DNA from: a virus
DNA length: 21,955 bases
Strand: one strand, 5' to 3'
IMG/VR virus record: IMGVR_UViG_3300017971_000811
Location: 1 to 21,955 of that record
The translations under genes were made by a program, and so were the position numbers. Each line of letters begins with the position of its first letter. Position 1 is the stretch's first letter. Positions 3,946 to 20,265 of this stretch are shown here, one piece after another. The notes under the pieces were generated by a model, which was not told where the DNA came from, searched no databases, and saw only the letters and a list, made by a program, of their open reading frames with translations.

Positions 3946-4131
3946 TTAGTTTGTTATTCTCTCTATTTCTTTTTCGCTTTCTTCGATAAATCTTTTTACA
4001 GTGAGATATAATCCTAATGGGGTTTTATCACCCCAAGTCGTATTATACCTACCGTTGGACCTTTTCTTTTTGAGTTGTAATAATTCACCTAATGCGACAC
4101 CTCTCATTGATTCTGCCTCAAATCTTTCCAT
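3946..4131 (-). CDS. Small phage protein, unknown function, last gene of leftward operon
   Basis: 61 residues. Start ATG 4131 is chosen because GGAGGTG lies six bases upstream; an in-frame ATG at 4161 has no SD. The core NGRYNTTWGDKTPLGLYLTV, followed by a charged helix, resembles a small protein type I have seen as hypothetical in several phages, but no function is known to me. Its SD also contains the stop codon of the 27-residue ORF just upstream, so the two are probably translationally coupled. It ends eight bases before the terminator. Confidence 0.7.
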   Translation of the reverse strand: MERFEAESMRGVALGELLQLKKKRSNGRYNTTWGDKTPLGLYLTVKRFIEESEKEIERITN

Positions 4132-4136
4132 TTCTC

Positions 4137-4220
4137 TCACCTCCATAACTTGCTCCGCCATCCAAGGCGGGTTAAAATGTTGTTAATCAGGTCATCGCCG
4201 GCAAGAAATAAGTATGTCAT
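4137..4220 (-). CDS. 27-residue ORF in the leftward operon
   Basis: ATG 4220 to TGA 4137 encodes a 27-residue peptide beginning MTYLFLAGDDLINNI and ending in a basic WRSKLWR. AAGGAG stands a few bases upstream of the ATG. The start overlaps the stop of the 4217 gene as ATGA, and its own TGA lies within the SD of the next gene. It fills the only otherwise empty slot in a densely packed operon. That is good contextual evidence for translation, though the peptide may mainly serve to couple its neighbours. Confidence 0.5.
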   Translation of the reverse strand: MTYLFLAGDDLINNILTRLGWRSKLWR

Positions 4221-4504
4221 TTTTTCTCCTTGTTGGTTGTCGGTCTTGGATTTGGATGCTGTATTCGTTCAGTGTAACGGCACCCTTTTGACCAACCATT
4301 ACACTGAACAGATTTTATTGCCCAACCTCCCGGGTCTAATTCGTAAAATTCTGTTTTTGACAGTTCGCAAGATTTTTCTTTTATCTTGCGAAAGCCTTCC
4401 CCTCGCAAAATTTTTGATTCACGGGTTGATGCGGCGAAGTTATCACCACTGCGGCCGTTTTTTAAAATAAAATACTTATTTTTTGTGTAAAAATCTATTT
4501 TCAT
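4217..4504 (-). CDS. Small protein of unknown function
   Basis: 95 residues. Start ATG 4504 has AAGGAGAGG upstream and overlaps the previous gene's stop as ATGA; a longer in-frame start at 4603 would overlap that gene entirely and is rejected. The protein is basic, with a C-terminal half containing QCNGWSKGCR and a low-complexity proline/lysine tail. The reading frame contains an almost perfect 13-base inverted repeat (4268-4308). I see no family motif. Dense packing supports it being a real gene. Confidence 0.6.
   Translation of the reverse strand: MKIDFYTKNKYFILKNGRSGDNFAASTRESKILRGEGFRKIKEKSCELSKTEFYELDPGGWAIKSVQCNGWSKGCRYTERIQHPNPRPTTNKEKK
4268..4308. repeat. 13-bp inverted repeat inside a coding region
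   Basis: TTCAGTGTAACGG (4268-4280) and CCATTACACTGAA (4296-4308) are complementary except for one position that can form G-U in one transcript sense. The spacer is 15 bases. A stem this long inside a gene is unusual and could be a protein-binding site or an mRNA structure. Confidence 0.45.
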
Positions 4505-4674
4505 GGCTTCCTCTCCTTTCCAAATGAGATTGTGACCTCCTGGGAATTCTCGTCGATCCCTGGGAAGCGTTTCCACCACGGGACAAAGCCCCGGGCTTTC
4601 CAATACTCCTCAATCTCCTCTCGACGAAGGATGTATCGGTCGAGAGGGATCCTGACAATGAATCTCTCAATCAT
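4501..4674 (-). CDS. Small basic protein, unknown function
   Basis: 57 residues from ATG 4674, with AAGGAGG six bases upstream. The longer in-frame start at 4728 lacks an SD and would overlap the 4667 gene more deeply. The chain is basic and aromatic (IVRIPLDRYILRREEIEEYW, WKARGFVPWWKRF) and ends in a strand-like VTISFG. The start overlaps the end of the 4667 gene by eight bases and the stop overlaps the next start as ATGA. No recognised family; strand order suggests a small alpha/beta fold. Confidence 0.65.
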   Translation of the reverse strand: MIERFIVRIPLDRYILRREEIEEYWKARGFVPWWKRFPGIDENSQEVTISFGKERKP

Positions 4675-4978
4675 GATTTGCCTCCTTGTCGCAGTTTTTT
4701 TTCTTCCAATTTTCTCCCCCATATCCACCTCTTTCTATTTTTTTCTTTGCCCATTCCGGCAACTCGTTGTACCAAATCTGTTGCCAATTTTTATCAAGAC
4801 CAGTCCTGATAAAGGTTGGACTACCCGCAAAAGTATGAGATTCCTCTTCATCCTCATAATGATACGAGAATGAATTCACCACCTTATCACGGACAAATTT
4901 TGGATTCCTGACAACACATACAATTGTCTTGTCAGAACCAAACAACTCATCAAAATTCCTATAAATATAATATTTCAT
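4667..4978 (-). CDS. Hypothetical protein, 103 residues
   Basis: Start ATG 4978 follows AAGGAGG with an eight-base spacer, directly downstream of the hairpin at 4998-5017. The N-terminal half looks like a small alpha/beta domain (KTIVCVVRNPKFVRDKVVNS). An acidic loop with YHYEDEEE follows, then an amphipathic helix with NELPEWAKKKIERGG and a lysine-rich end. No motif I can name. It overlaps the next gene by eight bases. Confidence 0.7.
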   Translation of the reverse strand: MKYYIYRNFDELFGSDKTIVCVVRNPKFVRDKVVNSFSYHYEDEEESHTFAGSPTFIRTGLDKNWQQIWYNELPEWAKKKIERGGYGGENWKKKNCDKEANHD

Positions 4979-4987
4979 GTTACTTGC

Positions 4988-5022
4988 CTCCTTTGTGCCC
5001 GGCTTGGTTACCGGGCTGGGAA
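4988..5022 (-). repeat. Hairpin-plus-SD leader element, copy 1
   Basis: GCCCGG (4998-5003) and CCGGGC (5012-5017) form a 6-bp stem with loop CTTGGTTA. On the minus strand it lies just upstream of the AAGGAGG of the 4667 gene. Including the SD, this stretch is nearly identical over about 34 bases to the one at 5220-5252 (one C/T change plus single-base length differences). Confidence 0.75.
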
Positions 5023-5028
5023 TGGGGT

Positions 5029-5214
5029 TTATCCTCTCCAGATTACGCCCCGAACTTGCTCATACAGCGCAGGGTCCTCAGGATGAATTCTAATTTTTTG
5101 TGCGCCAAGGCGTATTTTCGCCTGTCGCACGAACTCCCGAGACGGATGGCGCGGGTTGTCTATCTCTGCTTCAATTTGACCGATGGTTCCTTCTCCTGTG
5201 ATATAGACTTTCAT
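5029..5214 (-). CDS. Small alpha/beta protein, unknown function
   Basis: 61 residues from ATG 5214, with AAGGAGG directly upstream (five-base spacer); the GTG at 5220 is inside the SD and is rejected. The protein alternates strands and helices (MKVYITGEGTIGQIEAEI, FVRQAKIRLGAQKIRIH), suggesting a compact alpha/beta fold. No motif recognised. Hairpin repeats lie on both sides: copy 2 before its start, and copy 1 between its stop and the next gene. Confidence 0.65.
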   Translation of the reverse strand: MKVYITGEGTIGQIEAEIDNPRHPSREFVRQAKIRLGAQKIRIHPEDPALYEQVRGVIWRG

Positions 5215-5219
5215 TTTCA

Positions 5220-5252
5220 CCTCCTTGTGCCCGGCCTGGTTACCGGGCTGGA
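5220..5252 (-). repeat. Hairpin-plus-SD leader element, copy 2
   Basis: GCCCGG (5229-5234) and CCGGGC (5243-5248) with loop CCTGGTTA sit directly upstream of the SD of the 5029 gene on the minus strand. It is the near-duplicate of the element at 4988-5022. Confidence 0.75.
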
Positions 5253-5258
5253 ATGTTT

Positions 5259-5747
5259 TTAAGCCACTGCTTCAAAGGGTTCCGTTTCAAGTTCATCAGA
5301 GCCATATGTGGCTCTAATTTCTTCCATAGTGAATATACGCTTACTCCGTTTGCGATAACCGGCGGGTCTCCAGTACCATTGATGTTTTTTAGGAGCATAT
5401 CGTAGCCCAGCTTCTTTTAAATAGTCTTTAACTGGGCGCGTGTTTCCGCTCACCCATAGCCATGTTCCGCAAATTTCAAGACTAATATCCCTAAAATGTT
5501 TGATCTTGTTGATTATCCCTTGCAATACTTCGTCAATTGGGATATCATCATTGACTTGTTGATAATGCCACTTGTGGATATGTTTCTTTAAAAATTCATA
5601 AGCGGCGTTTATCAGCTTCATCAATTCCAATCCATCGGGATTCACGTCAGGATGATATCGCTTGCAAGCTATCCTGTATGCCCTTTTTAGGTCATCGTCC
5701 GTGTTTCCCGATGGTCTCAAAATGTTTAAAGCCTTTTGTAATGTCAT
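5259..5747 (-). CDS. DnaJ-like protein (J domain plus phage-type C-terminal domain)
   Basis: 162 residues from ATG 5747 (GGGAGGT seven bases upstream; a TTG at 5768 is rejected). Residues about 3-55 form a J domain: helix II DDLKRAYRIACKRY, the HPD motif (H32-P33-D34) in YHPDVNPDG, then helix III LMKLINAAYEFLKK. HPD contacts Hsp70 (DnaK) and stimulates its ATPase, so this protein can recruit host DnaK. The G/F and zinc-finger parts of true DnaJ are absent. The C-terminal part, with ICGTWLWVSGNTRPVKDYLK and KHQWYWRPAGY, is a domain I associate with J proteins on mobile elements. A role in replication or virion assembly is inferred. Confidence 0.85.
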   Translation of the reverse strand: MTLQKALNILRPSGNTDDDLKRAYRIACKRYHPDVNPDGLELMKLINAAYEFLKKHIHKWHYQQVNDDIPIDEVLQGIINKIKHFRDISLEICGTWLWVSGNTRPVKDYLKEAGLRYAPKKHQWYWRPAGYRKRSKRIFTMEEIRATYGSDELETEPFEAVA

Positions 5748-5773
5748 ATTGCACCTCCCTTTGAACAAAATTT

Positions 5774-5959
5774 TTATTCGTCAGTTGAGTAAAGGACTTT
5801 GCATCCCGCAAAATAGGTGTCAAGGTCAATCGCATTAGCTACGTGATAATCGTTGCCGGGAATTTCGTATAAATCCCGATCCAATACCACAAAATACTCT
5901 CTTTTCCTTTTTTTGGCCCACTGACGAGCCAACATTTCAGCTTGCCTTTGTGATTTCAT
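5774..5959 (-). CDS. Small basic protein, unknown function
   Basis: 61 residues from ATG 5959, eight bases after CGGAGG; the in-frame GTG at 5968 overlaps the SD. The N-terminal helix is very basic (QRQAEMLARQWAKKRKREYF) and may touch nucleic acid. The C-terminal part is acidic with a single cysteine (DTYFAGCKVLYSTDE). No family recognised. A GC-rich hairpin with a cUCCGg loop (5975-5990) sits just upstream of the SD. Confidence 0.65.
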   Translation of the reverse strand: MKSQRQAEMLARQWAKKRKREYFVVLDRDLYEIPGNDYHVANAIDLDTYFAGCKVLYSTDE

Positions 5960-5974
5960 GTCACTCACCTCCGT

Positions 5975-5990
5975 GCGCCCCGGAGGGCGC
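5975..5990 (-). repeat. GC-rich hairpin with UNCG-type loop upstream of an SD
   Basis: GCGCCC (5975-5980) and GGGCGC (5985-5990) close a four-base loop that reads UCCG in the leftward transcript, with a C-G closing pair: the especially stable cUNCGg tetraloop. It lies four bases from the CGGAGG of the 5774 gene. There is no T-run, so it is more likely an mRNA-processing or stability element than a terminator. Confidence 0.65.
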
Positions 5991-6000
5991 GGGTTAGGGA

Positions 6001-6204
6001 TTAACTTGCTCCTGTCATAATCCCAGTTTCTGTAGCCAGGATTTCTTTTTCCTCGTCGGATACCAGGGATATCTTATTGATACCCTTATAATACTCTTCC
6101 GGGGAATCATATTCATTTCCCTGGTCATCGTAGCCCTCTGAGTTTAACCATTCGATGGATACTTTTCGCTTTTCTTCAGTGGTCAATTGGTGCCATTTTT
6201 TCAT
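6001..6204 (-). CDS. Small acidic protein, first intact gene of the leftward operon
   Basis: 67 residues from ATG 6204, with CAGGAGGTGAGTAAG directly upstream. The in-frame ATG at 6297 has no SD and is rejected, although the 31 residues it would add begin with a hydrophobic stretch. The chain is acidic and helical (TTEEKRKVSIEWL, SPEEYYKGI, SDEEKEILATE); no motif recognised. Its translation start region (AGGAGGTGAGTAAGATG) is repeated with one change at 6609-6625, 407 bases upstream. Confidence 0.65.
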   Translation of the reverse strand: MKKWHQLTTEEKRKVSIEWLNSEGYDDQGNEYDSPEEYYKGINKISLVSDEEKEILATETGIMTGAS

Positions 6205-6421
6205 CTTACTCACCTCCTGTTTGATTTTACCCTTATCTATTGCATGAGACATGCCATCCCATAAAATATATAAGCAAAAAATGAATATTGCCCTCATATC
6301 AGCTATTTATAGCAGCACAAAAACACATGCTACGCAATCTGTAGCATTTGTGACACCATCCATAGCACCAAAACGTAAAACATACCGACATTTAATACCC
6401 AAAAATAGCCATAAATCAGGG

Positions 6422-6685: not shown

Positions 6686-7171
6686 ATGACAATTCAAGAT
6701 AGTTCACGTAAAACCATCATACGTAAAGCCCATAATAAAGAGAATCCTTACGCCCAAATATCAAGACGCCTCTTACAGGATAAATCATTGTCATGGAAAG
6801 CCACCGGTATGTTGGCTTACCTTCTATCACTCCCCGATAATTGGCAGATAAATACCACGGACCTTTGGAGGCGGAAGAAAGATGGTAGACAGTCAACCCG
6901 TACCATCCTAAATGAACTAATCAAACATGGATACGTCAAAAAGACAATCAAACGGGACGATAAAGGCAAGTTTCTCCGCTTCGAGTACATAGTCCACGAA
7001 ACCAAGTCTTATCCATTGTCCAGTTTCCGGAAAATGGACACTAATAAAGATACAGTACCTTCTTTCTCACATCATGACCTGCAATACGAACAGGCAATGA
7101 AACAAGACATCGAAGCTGCCGGCCTAACCTACACTCAATCCCAGATGGCCAGCCATCCAAATAAGATCTAA
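6686..7171 (+). CDS. Replication-type helix-turn-helix protein
   Basis: 161 residues. The N-terminal 95 residues (NPYAQISRRLLQDKSLSWKA, MLAYLLSLPDNWQINTTDLW, then a recognition-type helix in QSTRTILNELIKHGYVKK) match the winged-helix domain found at the start of phage and plasmid replication initiators and DnaD-like proteins. The C-terminal part is short and has no helicase-loader motif, so this may be a regulator rather than a full initiator. Start ATG 6686 is downstream of CGAGG; an ATG at 6682 stops after six codons. It borders the iteron-like repeats, which fits self-regulation or origin binding (inference). Confidence 0.75.
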   Translation: MTIQDSSRKTIIRKAHNKENPYAQISRRLLQDKSLSWKATGMLAYLLSLPDNWQINTTDLWRRKKDGRQSTRTILNELIKHGYVKKTIKRDDKGKFLRFEYIVHETKSYPLSSFRKMDTNKDTVPSFSHHDLQYEQAMKQDIEAAGLTYTQSQMASHPNKI

Positions 7172-7711
7172 ATGCCAAATAAAAAGCAAGATAAACCACT
7201 AACCTACAAACAACAACTGTTCGTCGACGCCTACGCCGGCAATGCAGCTGAAGCAGCAAGAATAGCCGGGTATAAACAACCGCAAGTCATAGGTTCCCGA
7301 TTGTTCCGGAAAGTTGAAATCAAAGAAGCCATCCGAAAACGAGATAACGGAAACGGGAAAAGAAGGAATAAAACGCTTGAAAAGATTATGACGCAAGAAG
7401 AGATACGTGCAGCATACTCAGACATTGCCCGTGACCCTGACCATAAAGACCGGCTAAAGGCCCTAGACTCCCTCGCTAGGTGTTATGCTATGTTTAGCGA
7501 TAATGTCAATATATCCGGGCAGATAGAGCACCTATCAGATACCCAGCTTACCCGCAAACTAACAGCTGCACTTATCATGCTGGGAGTCAAACAACACACA
7601 ATCGATCAACACATCGCCGGGCTCTTGACGCAGCCGCAAGACGTAAAACCACTAGATGTAGATGGCACGGTAGAGAGTGAGCCATCCAATGGGCACACAA
7701 GTGATAAGTAG
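7172..7711 (+). CDS. terS: Terminase small subunit
   Basis: 179 residues. Residues 9-55, with LTYKQQLFVDAYAGNAAEAA, IAGY and the GSRLFRKVEIKEAIRKR segment, match the N-terminal DNA-binding HTH of the Terminase_2 family (LTxKQxxFVxxYxxxxNAxxAAxxAGY...GSxLLxxxxI). TerS recognises the packaging site and delivers phage DNA to the large subunit. The central segment (MTQEEIRAAYSDIARDPDHK, LKALDSLARCYAMF) fits the oligomerisation helices. The start ATG follows the upstream stop with no gap, suggesting coupling. The large subunit gene is not adjacent: 1.5 kb containing two other genes intervenes. Confidence 0.88.
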   Translation: MPNKKQDKPLTYKQQLFVDAYAGNAAEAARIAGYKQPQVIGSRLFRKVEIKEAIRKRDNGNGKRRNKTLEKIMTQEEIRAAYSDIARDPDHKDRLKALDSLARCYAMFSDNVNISGQIEHLSDTQLTRKLTAALIMLGVKQHTIDQHIAGLLTQPQDVKPLDVDGTVESEPSNGHTSDK

Positions 7712-7967
7712 CTGTTTTCATGGACATTCTAACAAGTGTTTAGTTTACATAATGGTTTTATATCAGACATCAGACATTATCTCATTGTGCCCGGGTTTCC
7801 TGGACCATCGATGGGGGGGGGAGGGGGCGCTTTTTCCTGCGTTTTGCGATGGGACTCCGACTTACCCTTTAATGTTGCAAAAGTTTTCGATAGCAGGTAA
7901 TATATGAAGCCCTTAAATGAGCGAAACTGTATTGTTATTAATCGTTTAGGTATGGAGGTATGGAAAG
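7712..7967 (+). other. Intergenic region with a G9 tract
   Basis: I support no gene here. It includes a tandem CAGACAT repeat, and a G-rich block of nine Gs (7813-7821), one A and five Gs, followed by CGCTTTTT. A candidate promoter lies at 7875-7903. A 26-codon frame (7904-7984) ends inside the next gene in another frame; it may be a leader peptide but its SD is poor. Confidence 0.5.
7875..7903 (+). promoter_or_regulatory. Candidate promoter upstream of the sqdB-like gene
   Basis: TTGCAA (7875-7880) and TAATAT (7898-7903) are separated by 17 bases; each matches 4 of 6 consensus positions. It is the best sigma70-like pair in the gap and would drive the 7968 ORF, the sqdB homologue and possibly the head genes. 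Confidence 0.35.
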
Positions 7968-8108
7968 ATGGAATGGAAGTTTGAAAATGGTGTGACCATA
8001 GGATTTATTGATGATGGAAGTGAAGAATTTATAGGATGCCAAAATCCCATATTTTTTGAAGAACTTCCGAAGGAATTGGTAGTGGGTGAAGGCCAAGAAG
8101 GTAGATAG
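7968..8108 (+). CDS. Small acidic protein, unknown function
   Basis: 46 residues from ATG 7968; GGAGGT lies eight bases upstream. The sequence begins MEWKFENGVTIGFIDDGSEE and ends in EELPKELVVGEGQEGR: a short beta-rich acidic peptide. It ends 11 bases before the sqdB-like gene and shares its style of codons, so both may have arrived together. An alternative is that it continues the overlapping 7904 frame by frameshift, since that frame ends in a similar phrase (MEVWKDGMEV). Confidence 0.5.
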   Translation: MEWKFENGVTIGFIDDGSEEFIGCQNPIFFEELPKELVVGEGQEGR

Positions 8109-8119
8109 GAGATAGAGAC

Positions 8120-9208
8120 ATGAAGGTATTAATTTTAGGTAGTTCTGGTTATTTAGGTTATCCGACGTGTTGTTATTTGAGTGAGCGTGGGCATGAGATA
8201 TGCGGTATGGATGACATGAGCAAGGAGAAGTTTGAGGGGTTACTGGGAGGATTTCCGTTATTTAGGCCTGAGAGCAATTATTTTACCTATGATTATTTTA
8301 GTACGACTGATTTTTGGAATTTATCCAGGTTATTTGAGAGTTATCGGCCGGAGGTGATCATTCATTATGCTGAGATGCCGAGTGCTCCATTTTCGATGAA
8401 GAATCAATTGCATAGTTATCAGACGATGGAGAGCAATGTATTGGGGACTTTGAATGTTTTATGGGCTATGAGGTTGAACTGTCCTGAAGCTCATTTGATC
8501 AAGTTGGGGACGATGGGGGAATATGGAGCGCCGGACATTGATATAGAGGAGGGGTATTTAAATATCGAGCATAATGGTAGGAAAGACAGGATATTATATC
8601 CGAAGAGTGGGGGTTCATTTTATCATCTTTCCAAGATACATGATTCTCATAACATTGAATTTGCGTGCCGGGTGTGGGGTTTGAGGTCTACTGATTTAAA
8701 CCAGGGGATTGTGTATGGTGTAAAGACAGATGAGGCGGATCGGCTTAGTTTTCATTATGATGAGATATTTGGTACTGTTTTGAACAGGTTTTGTACGCAG
8801 GTGGTTGCCGGTGTTCCTTTGACTGTGTATGGTGGTGGTGGTCAGAAGAAGTCATTTTTAAACGTAAGGGATACGATGAGATGCGTTGAACTGGCTATGT
8901 TAAATCCTCCTGAGAGTGGAGAATATCGTGTATTCAACCAATTTACTCAAGTATTTAGTTTAAAAGACTTGGCTGAATTGGTTGTAAGTGTATATCCTAA
9001 AGGTGGAGATGTTCAATTTTTGAACAACCCCAGAGGTGATGAGAGAGAGGACGGGTTTTATAATCCCAAGAATGATAAATTTAAGAATTTGGGTTTGGAG
9101 CCTCATTTGCTGTCTGATGTGTTACTTGAAGAAATGTTTGAAATGATTGAACGATATCGGAAAAATATTGACGAGAGCGTTATTTTGCCGAAAATAGACT
9201 GGAATTAG
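8120..9208 (+). CDS. sqdB: UDP-sulfoquinovose synthase homologue (SQD1/SqdB type)
   Basis: 362 residues, extended short-chain dehydrogenase fold. The NAD-binding GxxGxxG is G7-G10-G13 (ILGSSGYLG). The catalytic set is T131 in LGTMGEYG and Y168-x3-K172 in FYHLSK. Several long segments follow the SQD1 family closely, not just generic epimerases: IDIEEGY, SFYHLSKIHDSHNI, TDLNQGIVYGVKTDE, FGTVLNRFCTQ, PLTVYGGGGQ, VFNQFTQVFS. SQD1 enzymes convert UDP-glucose and sulfite to UDP-sulfoquinovose, the head-group donor for sulfolipid or sulfonated glycans. Length is close to the bacterial enzymes. Codons favour TTA/TTG and GAG more than the terminase gene beside it, a sign of separate origin. A related sugar substrate remains possible. 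Confidence 0.88.
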   Translation: MKVLILGSSGYLGYPTCCYLSERGHEICGMDDMSKEKFEGLLGGFPLFRPESNYFTYDYFSTTDFWNLSRLFESYRPEVIIHYAEMPSAPFSMKNQLHSYQTMESNVLGTLNVLWAMRLNCPEAHLIKLGTMGEYGAPDIDIEEGYLNIEHNGRKDRILYPKSGGSFYHLSKIHDSHNIEFACRVWGLRSTDLNQGIVYGVKTDEADRLSFHYDEIFGTVLNRFCTQVVAGVPLTVYGGGGQKKSFLNVRDTMRCVELAMLNPPESGEYRVFNQFTQVFSLKDLAELVVSVYPKGGDVQFLNNPRGDEREDGFYNPKNDKFKNLGLEPHLLSDVLLEEMFEMIERYRKNIDESVILPKIDWN

Positions 9209-9210
9209 AT

Positions 9211-10743
9211 GTGCCTACGCAGGAAGAATTAAGAGAAGCGGCTCAAACTGTTATCAAGATTTCGGAAGAGATCAAGAGGCGGCATAAGCACAGAAAATTA
9301 TATTCTCTTTTTCCTGACAAGGGTCCGCTTCGTCGGGAGCTTTACAAGCCCCATATTTACTTTTTGAAAGCCGGTAAGGATTATTTTGAGCGCTGTATTA
9401 TTGCCGCAAACAGAGTTGGTAAGAGCATTTTGGGAGGATATGAGATTGCTCTTCATGCCACGGGCCTTTATCCTTACTGGTGGGAGGGAAAAAGATTTAA
9501 TCATCCTACCAGGCTTTGGGCTTGTGGTGCTTCATTTCAGACTGTTAGGGATATTGGTCAAGAAATTCTTTTAGGTCCTGTTGGATCTTGGGGAACAGGT
9601 CTTATCCCGGGTGATCTTATCAAGGATATCCGGCGCAGGGCAGGCAGTATCCCTAATTCTGTTGAGCAAATCACGGTTAAACATAAAACCGGTGGTCTTA
9701 GTGTTATCGGATTTAAAGCCTATGAACAAAAGCGTCAATCTTTTGAAGGCACGTCCATGCACGGTATATGGCTTGATGAAGAATGCCCGATGGATATTTA
9801 CGGTGAATGTATTATCCGGGCCATGACGGTTAATGAAGATGAGATGGGAACTGTTTTTTTGACATTTACGCCTCTAATGGGTTTAACAGAGGTTGTGCTG
9901 AAATTTGAACCGAACGGCGCCATGCCCGAAGGCAGGGCACCTTTTATAGATGATCCAAATATTATTCATGGCGTTAAGGAGTCCAAGTTTGTCATCAATG
10001 CCACATGGGATGATGCCCCCCATTTGACAGAAGAACAGAAAAAGAATATCATAGAGGGCACCCCGCTTTATCTTAGGGATGCAAGAGCTAAAGGAATTCC
10101 ACAACTTGGCGCTGGAGCCATCTATCCTATATTAGAGGATGATATAACGATAGAGGATTTCGAGATTCCGCCATGGTACAGACGGTGCTTTGGTCTTGAT
10201 ACGGGCTGGAAGGCAACAGCGGCATTGTGGGGGGCGATAGATCCAGAATCAGACGTTCTTTATTTGTACAGTTGTTATAAGCAAGGTCATGCTGAACCAG
10301 AAACCCATGTCAGGGCCGTGAAAAGCAGGGGCTATTGGATTCCCGGTGTCGGTGATTATGCCGGAACCAACCAACTAGATGGAAAGAAAGTCATTGAAGA
10401 ATATATGGCTCTTGGTTTGAACATCAGTTTTCCAGATAAGCATGTTGAGGCCGGGATTTTTGCGGTCTGGGAAAGAATGGTATCTGGAAGGCTGAAAATT
10501 TTTAAATCAGCTTGTATTCCCTTGATAAATGAGATCAGGATTTACAGACGAAACGACAAAGGCAAGGTTGCTGTTGAACAGGACGACCATTTGTGCGATT
10601 GCATGAGATATATCGTCATGACGGGCATCTTTATCGCAACCATAGCACCATTTGAAGACGAAGAATACTTTATTGGTCAACAATCAATGCGTTCATCCAT
10701 AGGGCGTATGCCGGGGCCGGGGTACTTTGGTGGAATATATTGA
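9211..10743 (+). CDS. terL: Terminase large subunit
   Basis: 510 residues, starting at GTG 9211, two bases after the sqdB stop (an ATG at 9209 is out of frame). Walker A is ANRVGKS (66-72), Walker B with catalytic glutamate is IWLDEE (186-191), and the coupling motif is LTFTP (217-221). The nuclease half opens with FGLDTGW (D330), has GDYAG (about 381-385) and ends with DDHLCD (D458, D459), the acidic triad of the RNase H-like nuclease. The protein pumps DNA into the prohead using ATP and cuts it. The SD is weak, so translation may depend on read-on from sqdB, tying their expression together. It overlaps the portal start. Confidence 0.93.
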   Translation: MPTQEELREAAQTVIKISEEIKRRHKHRKLYSLFPDKGPLRRELYKPHIYFLKAGKDYFERCIIAANRVGKSILGGYEIALHATGLYPYWWEGKRFNHPTRLWACGASFQTVRDIGQEILLGPVGSWGTGLIPGDLIKDIRRRAGSIPNSVEQITVKHKTGGLSVIGFKAYEQKRQSFEGTSMHGIWLDEECPMDIYGECIIRAMTVNEDEMGTVFLTFTPLMGLTEVVLKFEPNGAMPEGRAPFIDDPNIIHGVKESKFVINATWDDAPHLTEEQKKNIIEGTPLYLRDARAKGIPQLGAGAIYPILEDDITIEDFEIPPWYRRCFGLDTGWKATAALWGAIDPESDVLYLYSCYKQGHAEPETHVRAVKSRGYWIPGVGDYAGTNQLDGKKVIEEYMALGLNISFPDKHVEAGIFAVWERMVSGRLKIFKSACIPLINEIRIYRRNDKGKVAVEQDDHLCDCMRYIVMTGIFIATIAPFEDEEYFIGQQSMRSSIGRMPGPGYFGGIY

Positions 10744-15259: not shown

Positions 15260-16165
15260 ATGGCTATAACAACAGGTAATCACCCCAAGGCACTTTGGCC
15301 CGGTGTAAAAGCATGGTGGGGTCGTGCATACGATGAACATGCTGTTGAGTACACCGATTTGTTTGATATGGACACATCCTCTCAAGCCTATGAAGAGGAT
15401 GTCGGCCTCACAGGTTTTGGTCTTGCCAGTGTTAAACCGCAAGGTATGTCCATCGAATACGACACTGAATCACAGGGTTATACTTCAAGGTATTATCATG
15501 TGACGTATGCCTTGGGTTATATCGTAACGATGGAAGAGCTCATGGATAACCTTTATGCTGTGGTTTCCAAAAGACGGGCAAGGGCGAACGCCTTTAGTAT
15601 GCGTCAGACCAAGGAAAATGTGGCCGCGAATATCATAAATCGTGCTTTCAATGCAAGTTATACGCACGGTGACGGCCAAGTTTTGATTTGTAGCACACAT
15701 CCTACCAAGTCGGGCAACCAGAGTAACTTACTCACTACGGCTGCTGATTTGAGTGAAGCGTCTATTGAAGACCTCATCATTCAAATGATGGGCGCGGTTA
15801 ATGAGAGGAACCTGAAAATCAACCTGATGCCTAAATCACTTCATGTCGCGCGTCAGGAATGGTTCGAAGCTAACCGTATCCTGAAAAGCACTCTTCAAGT
15901 ACACACCGGAGACAATACAGTTAATGTTTTGAAAATGACCAATGCCCTCCCAGGCGGCATCAAGGTGAATCATTATTTCACCGATTCAGATGCTTGGTTC
16001 ATCAAGAGTAATTGCCCTGATGGTCTCAAGGGCTATCAAAGAATGGCAATTCAGTTCGACCAAGACAATGATTTTGACACAAAAAATGCAAAGGCAGCCT
16101 CAATTGAAAGATATAAATTTGGAGTCACGGATTGGCGGTCTATCTGGGGAACCCCCGGAGCATAG
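15260..16165 (+). CDS. Major capsid protein
   Basis: 301 residues. It has features of the HK97-fold coat of the Mu gpT-like group: an N-terminal arm (GVKAWWGRAYDEHAVEYTDL), a long spine-helix region with TMEELMDNLYAVVSKRRARA, then VAANIINRAFNASYTHGDGQ, ICSTHPTKSGNQSNL and a C-terminal FGVTDWRSIWGTPGA. Size, position after scaffold and the GGGGGTGA SD (AAGGGGGTG) fit a highly made coat. The 3' end (A6 run at 16081-16086) overlaps a different-frame gene. Confidence 0.87.
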   Translation: MAITTGNHPKALWPGVKAWWGRAYDEHAVEYTDLFDMDTSSQAYEEDVGLTGFGLASVKPQGMSIEYDTESQGYTSRYYHVTYALGYIVTMEELMDNLYAVVSKRRARANAFSMRQTKENVAANIINRAFNASYTHGDGQVLICSTHPTKSGNQSNLLTTAADLSEASIEDLIIQMMGAVNERNLKINLMPKSLHVARQEWFEANRILKSTLQVHTGDNTVNVLKMTNALPGGIKVNHYFTDSDAWFIKSNCPDGLKGYQRMAIQFDQDNDFDTKNAKAASIERYKFGVTDWRSIWGTPGA

Positions 16166-16829
16166 ACCGGATCATTTCGGGCGAGATATCCCCGAATCTG
16201 TTGCAATAGTGGCGATGGGGATATCCCGATTTGATTACGTCACCATTGCCTGTAACAAGGGTAGTGGGGCTGGAATAGCCCAGGAGACATGGGCAATCAA
16301 TAAGATGGGCGGCATTATTTTCAATGATATTTGTTTTCGCATGGATGATTTGGTTGAAAACAGACAATATATGAAACAACCCATGGTAGATTGGTTGAAA
16401 GCCCATCCATTGATTGTGACGTCTACGGCATATCCTGACGAGTTTCCAGGGAGTGTGGAGTATCCGCTTGAGAAAGTGATAAATTGTATAGGCGTACCCT
16501 ATTTTAACACGACACCGGCTTATGCTCTGGCATATGCAATATATTTGGGGATTCCTCATATTCATATCTATGGGTGTGATTATACCTACCCGGATAGAGG
16601 ACCCGCAGAAGAAGGCCGAGGATGTTTTGAGTTTATGATGGGTATTGCCTTTGAGCGAAAACTTATGATCCATATATCCCAACACACGTCCTTGTTGGAC
16701 ACCTGTTTTCCACTTGAAAGCAGGCTTTACGGTTACAACTGTGAGTTTGACATGCAGGGCGTGAACGGGAAATGGAAAGTTAATCGTAGAGAAAAGAAAG
16801 AAAATGGCGAGAAAAAAACCACCGATTGA
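16119..16829 (+). CDS. Rossmann-like protein of MptE/DUF115 type, paralogue 1
   Basis: About 236 residues from TTG 16119; the N-terminus is uncertain, because no ATG/GTG with a good SD precedes the first strand, and the frame stays open back to 15990 inside the capsid gene. The motif set is SVAIVAMGIS (nucleotide-binding-type turn), ETWAINKMGGI, CFRMDDL, IVTSTAYPDEFPGSVEYPLE, TTPAYALAYAIYLGI and HIYGCDYTYPDRG. The last block resembles the GxD/Y motif of MptE-like and Maf-type (DUF115) domains, some of which are sugar transferases. This is a fold-level guess. It overlaps the cysteine-cluster gene by 26 bases and has a homologue at 19291. Confidence 0.75.
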   Translation: MESRIGGLSGEPPEHRPDHFGRDIPESVAIVAMGISRFDYVTIACNKGSGAGIAQETWAINKMGGIIFNDICFRMDDLVENRQYMKQPMVDWLKAHPLIVTSTAYPDEFPGSVEYPLEKVINCIGVPYFNTTPAYALAYAIYLGIPHIHIYGCDYTYPDRGPAEEGRGCFEFMMGIAFERKLMIHISQHTSLLDTCFPLESRLYGYNCEFDMQGVNGKWKVNRREKKENGEKKTTD

Positions 16830-17379
16830 CGAAAGATACATGGATCAGAGCTGGTTTATCGAAAGCCATACCATATGCAGTGAACTTCGTGAAGCCTATG
16901 CTGTCATAGACAATGACTACGCCAAAAAAAAGTTGCGTATCGCCGTCACGATGGCAAAGGCAATGGCTAATAAACTAAGTCGATTGAGAGAAGGAAAAGA
17001 CGTGACCTGGAAATGCGAGAAGTGCGGCAATTGTTGCAAGGGTTTTGCCCTTGATGTTAAACCGTATGCGTTTGTGCTGGAAGACATAACACTGATGGAA
17101 ATCCACGATGTCCCTATTAAAGAAGGGTTTTCTCTGTTTATTCCGCATAGATGCAAACACCTCACGAAAGATAACCTGTGCGATATCTGGGACAATCGCC
17201 CACAGGTTTGCAGGAATTACTTTTGTGAGGGTAAAAAAGACGGTCAACATCATACGATAAAAACCGCACTTAGCGACGATTATGAAAAACCTGATAATTA
17301 CAAAACATTGTCTTATGATGATTCCCATGCTCAAGGAGTGTCCTCCGATGAGGATGTGGGAAAGGAGATTGAAAAATGA
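16804..17379 (+). CDS. YkgJ-type cysteine-cluster protein, paralogue 1
   Basis: 191 residues. The metal-binding set of the CxxCxxCC family is C71, C74, C77, C78 (KCEKCGNCCKG), then C117 (HRCKHL), C126 (LCDIWDNRPQVC), C136 and C141. Family members are called zinc- or iron-chelating; the lysine methylase FliB of flagellin shares this cysteine pattern. A 70-residue helical N-terminal extension with YAKKKLRIAVTMAKAM and an acidic C-terminal tail are extra compared with the second copy at 18139. The gene overlaps its upstream and downstream neighbours (ATGA at 17376), so it belongs to the same transcript. Substrate unknown. Confidence 0.82.
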   Translation: MARKKPPIDERYMDQSWFIESHTICSELREAYAVIDNDYAKKKLRIAVTMAKAMANKLSRLREGKDVTWKCEKCGNCCKGFALDVKPYAFVLEDITLMEIHDVPIKEGFSLFIPHRCKHLTKDNLCDIWDNRPQVCRNYFCEGKKDGQHHTIKTALSDDYEKPDNYKTLSYDDSHAQGVSSDEDVGKEIEK

Positions 17380-18164
17380 CTACTCGACATACAATTTCTC
17401 ATGCAGATGAACTTTATGCAGGACAGGCTTACAATGATGGGGATTCCCCTGATGGTCGTAGAGGAATCAAAATGCCTCACATATACGTGAGGGAATACGG
17501 GGCTATTTTAGCGAAAGATCATGACGGTTTGTTCGCAAGCGTATTGGCAACCAAAACCGGAAACCTTGTACTGTTATGTACCGGCGCATGGGCTTCCATT
17601 GTTTCAGGTGCCTGCCCGACAGGTACTATTACAAACAGTGCATCTTCCGGCACTATTGTATTGGATACCCCCAGAAACATTTGCTGGAAGGATGACAAGG
17701 ATTCGTCCGGTTTAAAGCTGCTTGTCAAGGGCAAGGATGAATATGATAACGTGATGTGGGAAAAGATTTCAGGGCCAAGTAACACCACGGTTCATGGCGT
17801 GAAAGCATTCAAGAAAATCAATTCCATGACCATCACGGGCAATTCGGCGTCTCTTGTTTGTATCGGCTATTCAAACAGGATTGGCTTGCCGTACCACCTT
17901 TCAAGCAAAGGGCGTTTTCTTGGTCTTGTGATTGATGGCATAAATCTGTGTACGCAATCAGCGACACATGCTTATACATTGACTACTGGACTTGCCCTTG
18001 CTACAGATGCAACAAGCACGGTTCGGAATCCCGATGTTCGCGGGTTGATTCATTTGTCTCAGGCGAACCGTATACCGGACGGGTCAAAGACGTTTACGGC
18101 TATTATGCTGGTTGATCACAGCACAAGAGACAAGGCTTATGGAAACGTCCAGGCAACCGCCTAG
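17376..18164 (+). CDS. Probable virion structural protein
   Basis: 262 residues, beta-rich and glycine/serine/threonine-rich, with few charged clusters. Segments such as TGNLVLLCTGAWASIVSGAC and SMTITGNSASLVCIGYSNRIG suggest a capsid-surface or fibre-like protein with a repeated strand pattern. No enzyme motif. It lies between the two Rossmann/cysteine-cluster modules; it might be their substrate, since such modifying proteins are often encoded beside their target (inference). ATGA links it to the gene before. Confidence 0.6.
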   Translation: MTTRHTISHADELYAGQAYNDGDSPDGRRGIKMPHIYVREYGAILAKDHDGLFASVLATKTGNLVLLCTGAWASIVSGACPTGTITNSASSGTIVLDTPRNICWKDDKDSSGLKLLVKGKDEYDNVMWEKISGPSNTTVHGVKAFKKINSMTITGNSASLVCIGYSNRIGLPYHLSSKGRFLGLVIDGINLCTQSATHAYTLTTGLALATDATSTVRNPDVRGLIHLSQANRIPDGSKTFTAIMLVDHSTRDKAYGNVQATA

Positions 18165-18456
18165 TGATGACGGTTGGGAGTGTAAACGGTGCGGCAATTG
18201 CTGCCGCACCATCGTTCTTCCCGTAACGGCTGTTAAAGATAATATTATTAGCGGATTGTTTGAAGCACATGGGCTTCCGCTGAATCAGACATTTAAGATA
18301 ACCTTGTTTCATGAATGCCGACACCTTGTTACATATAAAGATGGGAAAACATACTGTGACATTTATGAAAACAGACCAAATATTTGTAGAACTTTTACCT
18401 GTAAAGGCAAAGGGTCTGATTATCATTTAGAAATAGAGAGAATGCAATATGCCTGA
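18139..18456 (+). CDS. YkgJ-type cysteine-cluster protein, paralogue 2
   Basis: 105 residues, start ATG 18139, overlapping the previous gene by 26 bases; a TTG at 18112 is less likely. It is the minimal form of the family: C15, C18, C21, C22 (ECKRCGNCCR), C60 (HECRHLV), C73, C83 (CDIYENRPNIC) and C88. All eight cysteines line up with those of the 16804 protein, and CGNCC plus NRPxxCR are the same. The N-terminal extension of the first copy is absent. It couples to the methyltransferase-like gene by an eight-base overlap. Confidence 0.82.
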   Translation: METSRQPPSDDGWECKRCGNCCRTIVLPVTAVKDNIISGLFEAHGLPLNQTFKITLFHECRHLVTYKDGKTYCDIYENRPNICRTFTCKGKGSDYHLEIERMQYA

Positions 18457-19279
18457 ATCATTGCCTCATGACGACCCGAAATTTATAGAGATAAAAGAGA
18501 ATTTTGCCCGGGTCGTTAAGATAATAAGACAGGAATTCAAACAGGCAGATGAATGGTTGAGAGAACATCGTCTTCACCGGGGACAGATGAATGCAGTCGG
18601 CAGTAACGAGTTAAAAAAAGCCGATGTATGGGATTTTATAACAAAAGTCGCCCATTATCATAAGTCAACCGGCTGTAATATCGGACTAATGTATGTTTTA
18701 TGGAATTACATCGAGAAAAATACGCCACAATATTTTATCGAGTGCGGCACAGGAGTATCGACTCATTTGATTGCGGAGGCCATGAACAGGTTTTGCTACA
18801 AAAAATATAATGGAGACATTAAACTTGTTTCCATGGAAGGCAGTCCGAAATGGTATCAGGAAGCCCTCAGGCATCCTATTGCATACGATTTCGTTGATAT
18901 CGTCTTATCCCCAATTCAAACAACGGAATACGGGATGTTCATATCCAGGGGCTATGAAAAAATACCGGAATACCCATATGACACCATGTTCGTTGATGGT
19001 CCATGCCAGGATACATACACAAATTTGGATGTGTTAAGAGTCGCGTCCAGGATTGATAACAATATTGTTGCCATAATAGATAGCAGAATTCAAACCATTC
19101 TTGCCCTTTTACTTTTATATGGACCTAGCTTTTTGTGCATGCTTGGTAAAACATTTTTGTTTGGCCCAATTAACAAAAACACCTTGAGTAAATATCATAA
19201 AGATTGTGATATCCATGAAGTTTTACAAGAAAGAATTGCGCAGTTAATATTGCCTCATATTTACAGTGGCATAGAGTGA
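18449..19279 (+). CDS. Class I SAM-dependent methyltransferase-like protein
   Basis: 276 residues. Motif I is FIECGTGVSTH (E98, G100, G102), a Rossmann SAM-binding loop. An acidic residue follows in LVSMEGSPKWY (E130), and a DTMFVDGPCQ segment (D178, D183) fits the post-I/motif II region of class I methyltransferases. The N-terminal 75 residues are helical and charged; the C-terminal part is hydrophobic (ILALLLLYGPSFLCML) and not typical of a core MTase. Substrate cannot be read from the sequence; neighbours suggest a sugar, lipid or protein of the virion or cell surface. An FkbM-like member is also possible. Confidence 0.7.
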   Translation: MPESLPHDDPKFIEIKENFARVVKIIRQEFKQADEWLREHRLHRGQMNAVGSNELKKADVWDFITKVAHYHKSTGCNIGLMYVLWNYIEKNTPQYFIECGTGVSTHLIAEAMNRFCYKKYNGDIKLVSMEGSPKWYQEALRHPIAYDFVDIVLSPIQTTEYGMFISRGYEKIPEYPYDTMFVDGPCQDTYTNLDVLRVASRIDNNIVAIIDSRIQTILALLLLYGPSFLCMLGKTFLFGPINKNTLSKYHKDCDIHEVLQERIAQLILPHIYSGIE

Positions 19280-19290
19280 GGAGAGTAAAT

Positions 19291-20265
19291 ATGGAGATAT
19301 TGAAAAGTAAGCCAGTGCCGGGAGTCGTTGCAATTGTTGCAATGGGGGATTCCCGTGTGCAGTATGAGTCCGAAGCCATAAAATCCGGTAGCCGTTATGG
19401 TGTAGCAGATGAGACATGGGTAATAAACAAGCTTGCAGAGGTATACCATCATGACATTCTGTTCAGGATGGACGATCTTAGACAAGTCAGGCTGTGCAAT
19501 GAGGGGATAATTCGGGATAAGGATAATATTTCCATACATGAACGATTTGACAAGGTTTTGCGGAATCATGACAAGCCGATTATTACGTCTACCGCTTACC
19601 CGGAGTATCCGACGTCCGTATCATACCCGCTTGAGGAAGTTATCAATTTTATGGGAACAAGTTATTTTCAAACCTGTCCTGCATATGCCGTGGCGTTTGC
19701 GGCATACATTGGCGTAAAGAGAATAAAGATGTATGGATGTGATTACACTTATCGGCAGGTTACTCATAGCACTGAAACAGGCCGGGCTAACCTGGAGCAT
19801 ATGCTGACAATGGCTATGAATAAAGGTGTCCAAGTAGAGGTTGCCAGGAAGTCCACGTTATTAAACACCAATTGTCCCCCTGACGAATATTTTTACGGGT
19901 ACGGTGGAAGAATTATTGAAGTTATGCCTGATCCTGAAAATAAAAACCGAATGAAGATTCGACATAGAGAAGATCTGGACACGATAGAAGAAATAAAAAC
20001 ACAAAAAATTGAGCTGAGAAAAATGTATGATTACATGGAGAAATTCAAAGATATCCTTGAGCCAGGAAATCCGCAACTTATAAAAACATACCGGGAGAAA
20101 ATTCTTAAAGCCGGTGAAATGCTTGTGGAAAAGCAAGACGCACTACAAGCACAGATTGACGAAAAATACGGAAACGGGGTTTATCAAAAACCACCTGAAC
20201 CAAAACAAAATCCTAAGTCGCCCCAAAAAGGGCGTTCTAAAAAAAGAACGACGAAAGGAAAATAA
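19291..20265 (+). CDS. Rossmann-like protein of MptE/DUF115 type, paralogue 2, with basic tail
   Basis: 324 residues from ATG 19291 (GAGGAGAG seven to eight bases upstream). Residues 10-210 align by eye with the 16119 protein: VVAIVAMGDSR, DETWVINKLAEV, FRMDDL, IITSTAYPEYPTSVSYPLEE, CPAYAVAFAAYIGV, IKMYGCDYTYRQ, STLLNTNCP and YGYGG. Identical key words make common descent certain. A C-terminal extension of about 100 residues has a coiled-coil region (TIEEIKTQKIELRKMYDYME, then KILKAGEMLVEKQDALQAQI) and ends in a proline/lysine-rich tail (KSPQKGRSKKRTTKGK). This tail may anchor it to other proteins or nucleic acid. Function unknown. Confidence 0.75.
   Translation: MEILKSKPVPGVVAIVAMGDSRVQYESEAIKSGSRYGVADETWVINKLAEVYHHDILFRMDDLRQVRLCNEGIIRDKDNISIHERFDKVLRNHDKPIITSTAYPEYPTSVSYPLEEVINFMGTSYFQTCPAYAVAFAAYIGVKRIKMYGCDYTYRQVTHSTETGRANLEHMLTMAMNKGVQVEVARKSTLLNTNCPPDEYFYGYGGRIIEVMPDPENKNRMKIRHREDLDTIEEIKTQKIELRKMYDYMEKFKDILEPGNPQLIKTYREKILKAGEMLVEKQDALQAQIDEKYGNGVYQKPPEPKQNPKSPQKGRSKKRTTKGK

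Follow-up and report, generated by a model that had tools for sequence, protein, structure and literature searches.

The window, a 21,955-nucleotide stretch of IMG/VR record IMGVR_UViG_3300017971_000811 in which all positions below are counted, comes from an uncultivated bacterial virus, and those of its genes that are discussed here lie on its + strand. The large terminase subunit gene (terL, 9211-10743) is identified by its matches to PHROG terL families, while the major capsid protein gene (MCP, 15260-16165) gives weak matches to PHROG head proteins. Directly behind the capsid gene, between 16119 and 20265, lies the cassette that is our subject. It encodes, in order, MPT1 (16119-16829), CYS1 (16804-17379), a probable virion structural protein (17376-18164), CYS2 (18139-18456), a probable class I SAM methyltransferase (18449-19279) and MPT2 (19291-20265). 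As the initial annotation had described, the genes are tightly packed: MCP and MPT1 overlap by 47 bp, and overlaps of 26, 4, 26 and 8 bp follow along the cassette. The placing of the region among late virion genes is likewise supported.

MPT1 and MPT2 share 43% identity over 200 amino acids (BLASTP, E=1e-49), and their local alignment score of 378 may be compared with a mean of 32 and a maximum of 51 for shuffled sequences. They had been proposed as MptE/DUF115-like paralogues, and all of the shared motifs quoted in support of that proposal are indeed present. MPT1 begins with a TTG codon inside the capsid gene, an uncertain start given that in-frame ATG codons further upstream are possible; MPT2 has a C-terminal extension that is helical and basic, and an in-frame GTG is found at 19276.

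The fold was assessed through an AlphaFold (AF2) model of MPT (pLDDT 89.7). Its structural matches are headed by Maf (Z 11.3), MptE (11.2), CstII (10.4) and SteA (10.3), followed by ST8SiaIII (about 8), TPPK (7.2) and one entry at 6.2, with the remainder below 5. With Z scores of 10.3-11.3, well above those of unrelated entries, the modelled MPT is a member of the Maf/MptE/GT42/SteA fold superfamily, and the MptE/DUF115/Maf-type fold earlier suggested for these Rossmann proteins is thereby supported. Among PDB sequences an MPT profile found no match. The curated cut-off of PF01973 (MptE-like) is 34.6 bits, against which MPT2 scores 13.7 bits and MPT1 has no match; across the wider family, 16 of 24 members resemble PF01973 (best E=7.6e-5), the sole Pfam family to be matched recurrently, and three have weak matches to PHROG sialyltransferases. 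The family is represented in 80+ viral contigs. In its alignment 18 columns are invariant, among them G, N, D, Y and E residues and the positions N61 and D76; since MPT is also repeatedly fused to methyltransferases, catalysis is suggested.

CYS1 and CYS2 are 38% identical (E=4e-21) and score 36.8 and 31.4 bits, respectively, against a PF03692 cut-off of 23. Both contain the CxxCxxCC motif and downstream cysteines, and the eight cysteines that they have in common bear out their description in the initial annotation as a pair of YkgJ-type proteins. In CYS1 the PF03692 domain occupies 17011-17223 and a ninth Cys lies in an additional N-terminal domain, which is missing from the 105-residue CYS2. 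Seven cysteines are invariant across 15 phage members of PF03692. The AF2 model of the CYS domain (mean pLDDT 61) gave no fold match, and a profile search of PDB sequences yielded an insignificant match only. The domain is found in many phage head/packaging modules without MPT and is therefore not specific to the cassette. The initial annotation had staked its proposal on the two kinds of gene being found together in other genomes, and here it survives narrowly: among 50 MPT-bearing records, CYS accompanies MPT in a diverged phage, L084, and in 0 of the 49 others.

The additional domain of CYS1, for which we coin the name TIC, comprises the N-terminal 65 residues (about 16804-17000) and is a separate small helical phage domain, seen elsewhere as free-standing ORFs or in glycosyltransferase (GT) fusions. 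TIC was traced independently, via a DNA pattern, and 18 of the contigs bearing it fall outside the present lineage. In 12 of these 18 unrelated viral contigs a GT2 gene is fused to TIC or lies no more than 750 bp away on the same strand. Many TIC contigs also contain a methyltransferase, GT29-like or sugar-nucleotide gene; Methyltransf_24, KdsA/KdsB and PseC-like genes are among those seen. Proteins of the CYS type were seen in two TIC records, one above the PF03692 cut-off (L117) and the other a sub-threshold CxxCxxCC protein (L128).

The TIC domain and two genes, at 18449 and 8120, are additions to the initial annotation. The 18449 product matches Methyltransf_24 at E=0.005 and its L084 orthologue at E=0.009, both below the cut-off; it conserves the SAM motif ExGTGVST (general form ExGTGxST) along with FVDGP, and is probably a class I SAM methyltransferase. 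A motif scan placed its relatives in the present lineage and L084 only, a profile search of PDB sequences gave no match, and profile comparison (hhalign) gave no significant match to other methyltransferases of phages. The other gene (8120-9208) lies immediately upstream of terL, 7 kb from the cassette, and encodes an SDR enzyme of the SQD1 type. Its product matches NCBIfam NF041015 over the full length (E=6.6e-107, 358 bits, below the equivalog cut-off of 575 bits) and SQD1 itself (PDB 1qrr, E=4e-111, also full length), and it retains the TMGEYG and YxxxK motifs; it is UDP-sulfoquinovose-synthase-like and possibly supplies a sugar nucleotide. In one TIC contig KdsA/KdsB precede terL in the same manner.

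The cassette is retained in L084, with one CYS gene instead of two, in the order MPT1 - structural - TIC - TIC - CYS - methyltransferase - MPT2. The MCPs of the two phages are 85% identical and the cassette proteins 38-60%, so that the cassette is evolving fast relative to the capsid. MPT2 has its own orthologue in L084 (clade support 100/99), as does the 17376 product (54% identity). The latter also weakly matches a 416-residue virion-module protein of L084, and its earlier description as structural-type rests on such weak similarity to other virion-module proteins. The two modules that the initial annotation placed on either side of this gene, with the probable methyltransferase between them, are evident in the present phage but not in L084, where the gene order differs. 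The L084 contig begins after terL, and the place that an SQD1-like gene would occupy falls outside it.

Other relatives were sought in several ways. Searches with single window proteins returned only a near-identical contig (3300028840_005636). With the queries tried, neither MPT nor TIC had a match in 50,697 phage records, nor any convincing PHROG match, so that both families would be missed by standard annotation. In tblastn searches against isolate phages MPT gave nothing significant (the limit was E 1e-5 for three queries, and a fourth query with a loose limit reached a best E of 0.02), and nor did CYS1, TIC or the SQD1-like protein. Among uncultivated viruses the context of MPT is recurrent: 20 of 87 contigs carry it as a fusion with a class I methyltransferase, and in L007, L008 and L020 it adjoins a different methyltransferase. 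In about 25 contigs it lies within a few genes of the PF05065 capsid gene, and its place is often directly behind the capsid gene. GT2 genes occur in 5 of 50 MPT records and are thus no general feature of phages with MPT. The link to glycosylation raised in the initial annotation thus gains support from neighbours that it had not listed, namely the TIC-GT2 associations, the fusions of MPT to methyltransferases, and the SQD1-like gene.

We consider that this fast-evolving gene set, placed directly after the shell-protein gene, most likely decorates the virus's own particle. More specifically, we put at about one half the probability that 16119-20265 is a cassette that works late and in the cytoplasm, transferring glycosyl and methyl groups to a virion protein. 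MPT1 and MPT2 would be cytoplasmic transferases of the Maf/MptE/GT42 fold using a nucleotide-activated sugar, which the SQD1-like enzyme may furnish. The acceptor would itself belong to the virion, with the capsid protein and the 17376 product as the likeliest candidates; it would be modified before or during assembly, and the 18449 protein would probably cap or methylate the same product. TIC would probably be an adaptor recruiting the enzyme or enzymes to their acceptor, with the CxxCxxCC domain probably as a metal or Fe-S accessory. It is rather doubtful that the system goes further and forms an undescribed class of virion modification, wide in uncultivated phages, in which Maf/GT42-fold transferases, duplicated or methyltransferase-fused and recruited by TIC, put a methylated sugar, possibly sulfonated (sulfoquinovose) or of nonulosonate type, on capsid proteins with the CxxCxxCC metalloprotein as an essential partner.

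The glycosyl/methyl-transfer signature would also suit late modification of a host surface glycan or protein, serving superinfection exclusion or masking of released progeny. SQD1-like enzymes feed both lipid and surface glycan pathways, and a viral UDP-sulfoquinovose gene from the Cariaco Basin has been interpreted as acting on host N-glycosylation (PMC7785012). We nevertheless regard a host target as rather unlikely, since none of the cassette genes was recognised as encoding a membrane glycosyltransferase, a flippase or a polyprenyl-phosphate enzyme, and in several phage groups the run of capsid-connector genes encloses the cassette. The cysteine proteins had also been linked to FliB, whose own cluster accompanies methylation of flagellin lysines (PMC8598068), and a probable methyltransferase gene does adjoin CYS2. 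That link fails: the FliB motif is CX4CX3CC (PMC8598068) as against CX2CX2CC in CYS1 and CYS2, CYS2 leaves scant room for a catalytic domain, and PF03692 occurs in 9 of 14 control genomes, indicating broad roles. Protein methylation of the FliB type built on CYS is thus very improbable, and as the main function it was rejected on the cysteine spacing and the presence of CYS outside the cassette.

Two further possibilities arise from the fold itself, which in the model is common also to a pyrophosphokinase, MptE, and to a cell division regulator, SteA. MPT might be a true MptE-like pyrophosphokinase or nucleotide-processing enzyme, working with the methyltransferase and CYS on nucleotide, cofactor or DNA modification; MptE is tied as best structural match, and no Pfam family except the MptE-like one is matched by a majority of MPT members, but the linked domains indicate sugars rather than pterins or bases and the neighbours are late virion rather than replication genes, making this unlikely. 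It is similarly improbable that MPT is a non-catalytic scaffold, as SteA may be in reusing the fold, with CYS and TIC as assembly factors and the sugar link incidental. The recurrence of CYS and MPT near head genes, each without the other, would fit such a role, whereas the invariant columns and methyltransferase fusions speak for catalysis.

Phage particles are usually taken to be bare protein, and virus self-decoration is already known. If modification of a virion protein is the true function, capsid self-decoration would reach beyond mycobacteriophages into a wide range of uncultivated phages, a transferase fold of the bacterial flagellin type would be used for it, and the MPT family and TIC domain would become sequence markers for predicting virion modification from genomes. 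The protein families of the cassette, and their combination, appear undescribed.

Comparison with known systems defines the resemblance further. Residues 10-195 of MPT share the fold of the Magnetospirillum flagellin glycosyltransferase Maf (5mu5), and both would act in the cytoplasm, their genes lying beside those of a large polymeric protein. However, Maf has 632 residues with extra domains, compared with about 240 in MPT, the two are 13% identical, and MPT is found in phage head modules, often fused to a methyltransferase. The likeness to the GT42 sialyltransferases CstII and Cst-I of Campylobacter jejuni (Z 9.6-10.4) is one of fold only, at 14-18% identity. From MptE, the 6-hydroxymethylpterin diphosphokinase of M. 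jannaschii (8sd5), MPT differs in falling below the PF01973 cut-off and in having no pterin pathway context. As in the mycobacteriophages Che8, Corndog and Myrna, in which the glycosylation of capsid or tail proteins by transferases of the phage is established (cited in PMC12363180), the putative transferases of the present phage are encoded by the virus and would modify virion proteins; by description, a Maf/GT42-type fold and the company of a methyltransferase, TIC and CxxCxxCC proteins set it apart. The Mu-like virus of the Cariaco Basin likewise encodes a UDP-sulfoquinovose synthase (PMC7785012), again a likeness by description, whereas here the SQD1-type gene immediately precedes terL and is accompanied in the phage by a transferase cassette.

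The window, an entire IMG/VR viral record of 21,955 bp, carries genes for terL (9211), the portal (10727) and a capsid protein (15260). From the capsid gene as far as 20265, consecutive genes abut or overlap. The two Rossmann-type proteins encoded there, MPT1 (16119-16829) and MPT2 (19291-20265), are true paralogues, as the initial annotation had proposed, sharing 43% identity (E=1e-49; alignment score 378, with shuffled sequences reaching at most 51). The same is true of the two cysteine proteins, CYS1 (16804-17379) and CYS2 (18139-18456), which exceed the PF03692 cut-off, are 38% identical (E=4e-21) and have eight cysteines in common. An opposite-strand gene block with reversed GC skew (3946-6297) separates the early region from the late operon.

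A diverged phage, L084 (3300017971_001524), carries the cassette (16119-20265) in the order capsid protein, MPT1, orthologue of the probable structural protein at 17376, two separate small ORFs each corresponding to the N-terminal domain of CYS1 (here TIC), a CYS gene, orthologue of the 18449 protein, MPT2, and orthologues of 20269 and 21040. Identity is 60% for MPT1, 54% for the 17376 protein, 49% for MPT2, 47-49% for CYS and 38% for the 18449 protein; by this comparison the cassette is retained as a whole while its component proteins diverge quickly. Across 15260-20265 the cassette (38-60% identity) evolves much faster than the capsid protein (85%). The single CYS gene of L084 does not preserve the two-module symmetry seen in the initial annotation. 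Among the contigs compared, MPT duplication is confined to these two lineages, and since MPT1 and MPT2 each group with their own L084 counterpart (support 94/85 and 100/99, respectively; 92/89 for all four together), the duplication is placed by the tree before the divergence of the two phages.

The AlphaFold2 model of MPT1 (pLDDT 89.7, pTM 0.85) most closely matches the Maf flagellin glycosyltransferase (Z 11.3) and Methanocaldococcus jannaschii MptE (11.2), followed by SteA (10.3), the sialyltransferases CstII and Cst-I (about 10), ST8SiaIII (about 8) and thiamin pyrophosphokinase (7.2), with later matches at 6.2 and then below 5. The fold originally assigned was thus correct. Weak matches to PF01973 (MptE-like) were found in 16 of 24 members, for which PHROGs gave no significant match, only faint ones to a sialyltransferase family. 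By itself, the modelled fold cannot tell sugar transfer from pyrophosphoryl transfer or a non-catalytic role. The family's invariant residues, including E56, W58, N61, D76, Y128, Y135, D154, E171 and YGY204-206, suggest an active site.

An alignment profile search found 106 MPT relatives encoded in viral contigs, of which 80 were kept, and only five contigs in the bacterial and archaeal genome collection. Four contigs with MPT genes, binned as Planctomycetaceae, Sterolibacterium, Herbaspirillum and Bauldia (L102-L105), are possible prophages and host clues. No match was obtained by tblastn of three different members against 50,697 phage records at E 1e-5, and a fourth member, at a loose limit, gave a best E of only 0.02. 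In our searches MPT and TIC were confined to metagenomic viral contigs, plus a handful of bacterial genome contigs for MPT. In about 25 contigs the MPT gene closely follows a PF05065 capsid gene, often separated from it by one small gene; another group of contigs has it in the connector region. In 20 of 87 contigs MPT forms a fusion protein with a class I methyltransferase (Methyltransf_23/11) at its N-terminus; in L007, L008 and L020 a separate, different methyltransferase gene precedes it. The 18449 protein is itself probably a class I methyltransferase, with modest support: matches to Methyltransf_24 fall under the cut-off (E=0.005; 0.009 for the L084 orthologue), ExGTGVST and FVDGP motifs are conserved, and its profile reached no significance against other phage methyltransferases.

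TIC (CYS1 residues 1-65) falls outside PF03692. A DNA pattern from its conserved TICQxLRD..Y stretch retrieved 22 contigs, most confirmed by profile. In 12 of the 18 TIC-bearing contigs outside the window lineage, a GT2 glycosyltransferase is fused to TIC or encoded on the same strand no more than 750 bp away, in most cases with an overlap; because the contigs were chosen by the TIC pattern alone, this linkage is no selection effect. L121 (8126-10348) and L128 (504-2735) encode single 740-residue GT2-methyltransferase-TIC chains, and L124, L108 and L113 resemble further GT2-TIC cases, without Pfam confirmation. In L109-L130, TIC is a helical phage protein of 65-75 residues without Pfam or PHROG family, GT2-adjacent or GT2-fused in most contigs, and in tandem copies in L110, L117 and L120. 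Nearby genes include Methyltransf_24 (L109, L122, L129), GT29 (sialyltransferase)-like genes (L114, L127, L129) and, in L117, which also carries a PF03692 gene, a PseC-like aminotransferase and a sugar dehydrogenase. The GT29-like genes (L114 6564-7154, L127 5095-5622, L129 1304-1888) lie upstream of GT2-TIC pairs, inside tail/head gene runs. L128 has KdsA- and KdsB-type genes for Kdo synthesis and activation (6930-8356 and 4588-4995) directly before terL and a CxxCxxCC protein after it.

PF03692 proteins recur without MPT in head/packaging gene runs of other phages and are therefore a looser partner of the cassette. In unrelated phages, small PF03692-like CxxCxxCC proteins occur repeatedly among the genes for terL, portal, capsid and connector (L085, L086, L088, L090-L094, L097-L101), which suggests a general role in head assembly or packaging. 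Their structure predictions were of low quality, and the FliB comparison made initially does not hold, the FliB cysteine motif being different (PMC8598068). Directly before terL, 8120-9208 encodes a full-length SQD1-type (UDP-sulfoquinovose synthase-like) enzyme (E=4e-111 to solved SQD1) retaining TMGEYG and YxxxK and scoring under the NCBIfam equivalog cut-off; a search of isolate phage records at E 1e-20 gave no relative. A UDP-sulfoquinovose synthase carried by a virus was described previously (PMC7785012).

The cassette is real and conserved, and is built from two families, MPT and TIC. It is probably a new form of virion modification in phages, with the fold and the linkage demonstrated and the substrate and chemistry putative. 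We favour a mechanism in which MPT1 and MPT2 would transfer sugar in the cytoplasm to a virion protein encoded beside them, methylation would follow, TIC would provide targeting and CYS would assist in a metal-dependent way; here the donor, the acceptor and the TIC and CYS steps are what we infer. A lipid-linked host-surface pathway is argued against by the cassette genes, among which no membrane glycan machinery was recognised. The analogy for the MPT mechanism is Maf, which glycosylates flagellin. Among phages, glycosylation of capsid and tail is described as established in mycobacteriophages (PMC12363180).
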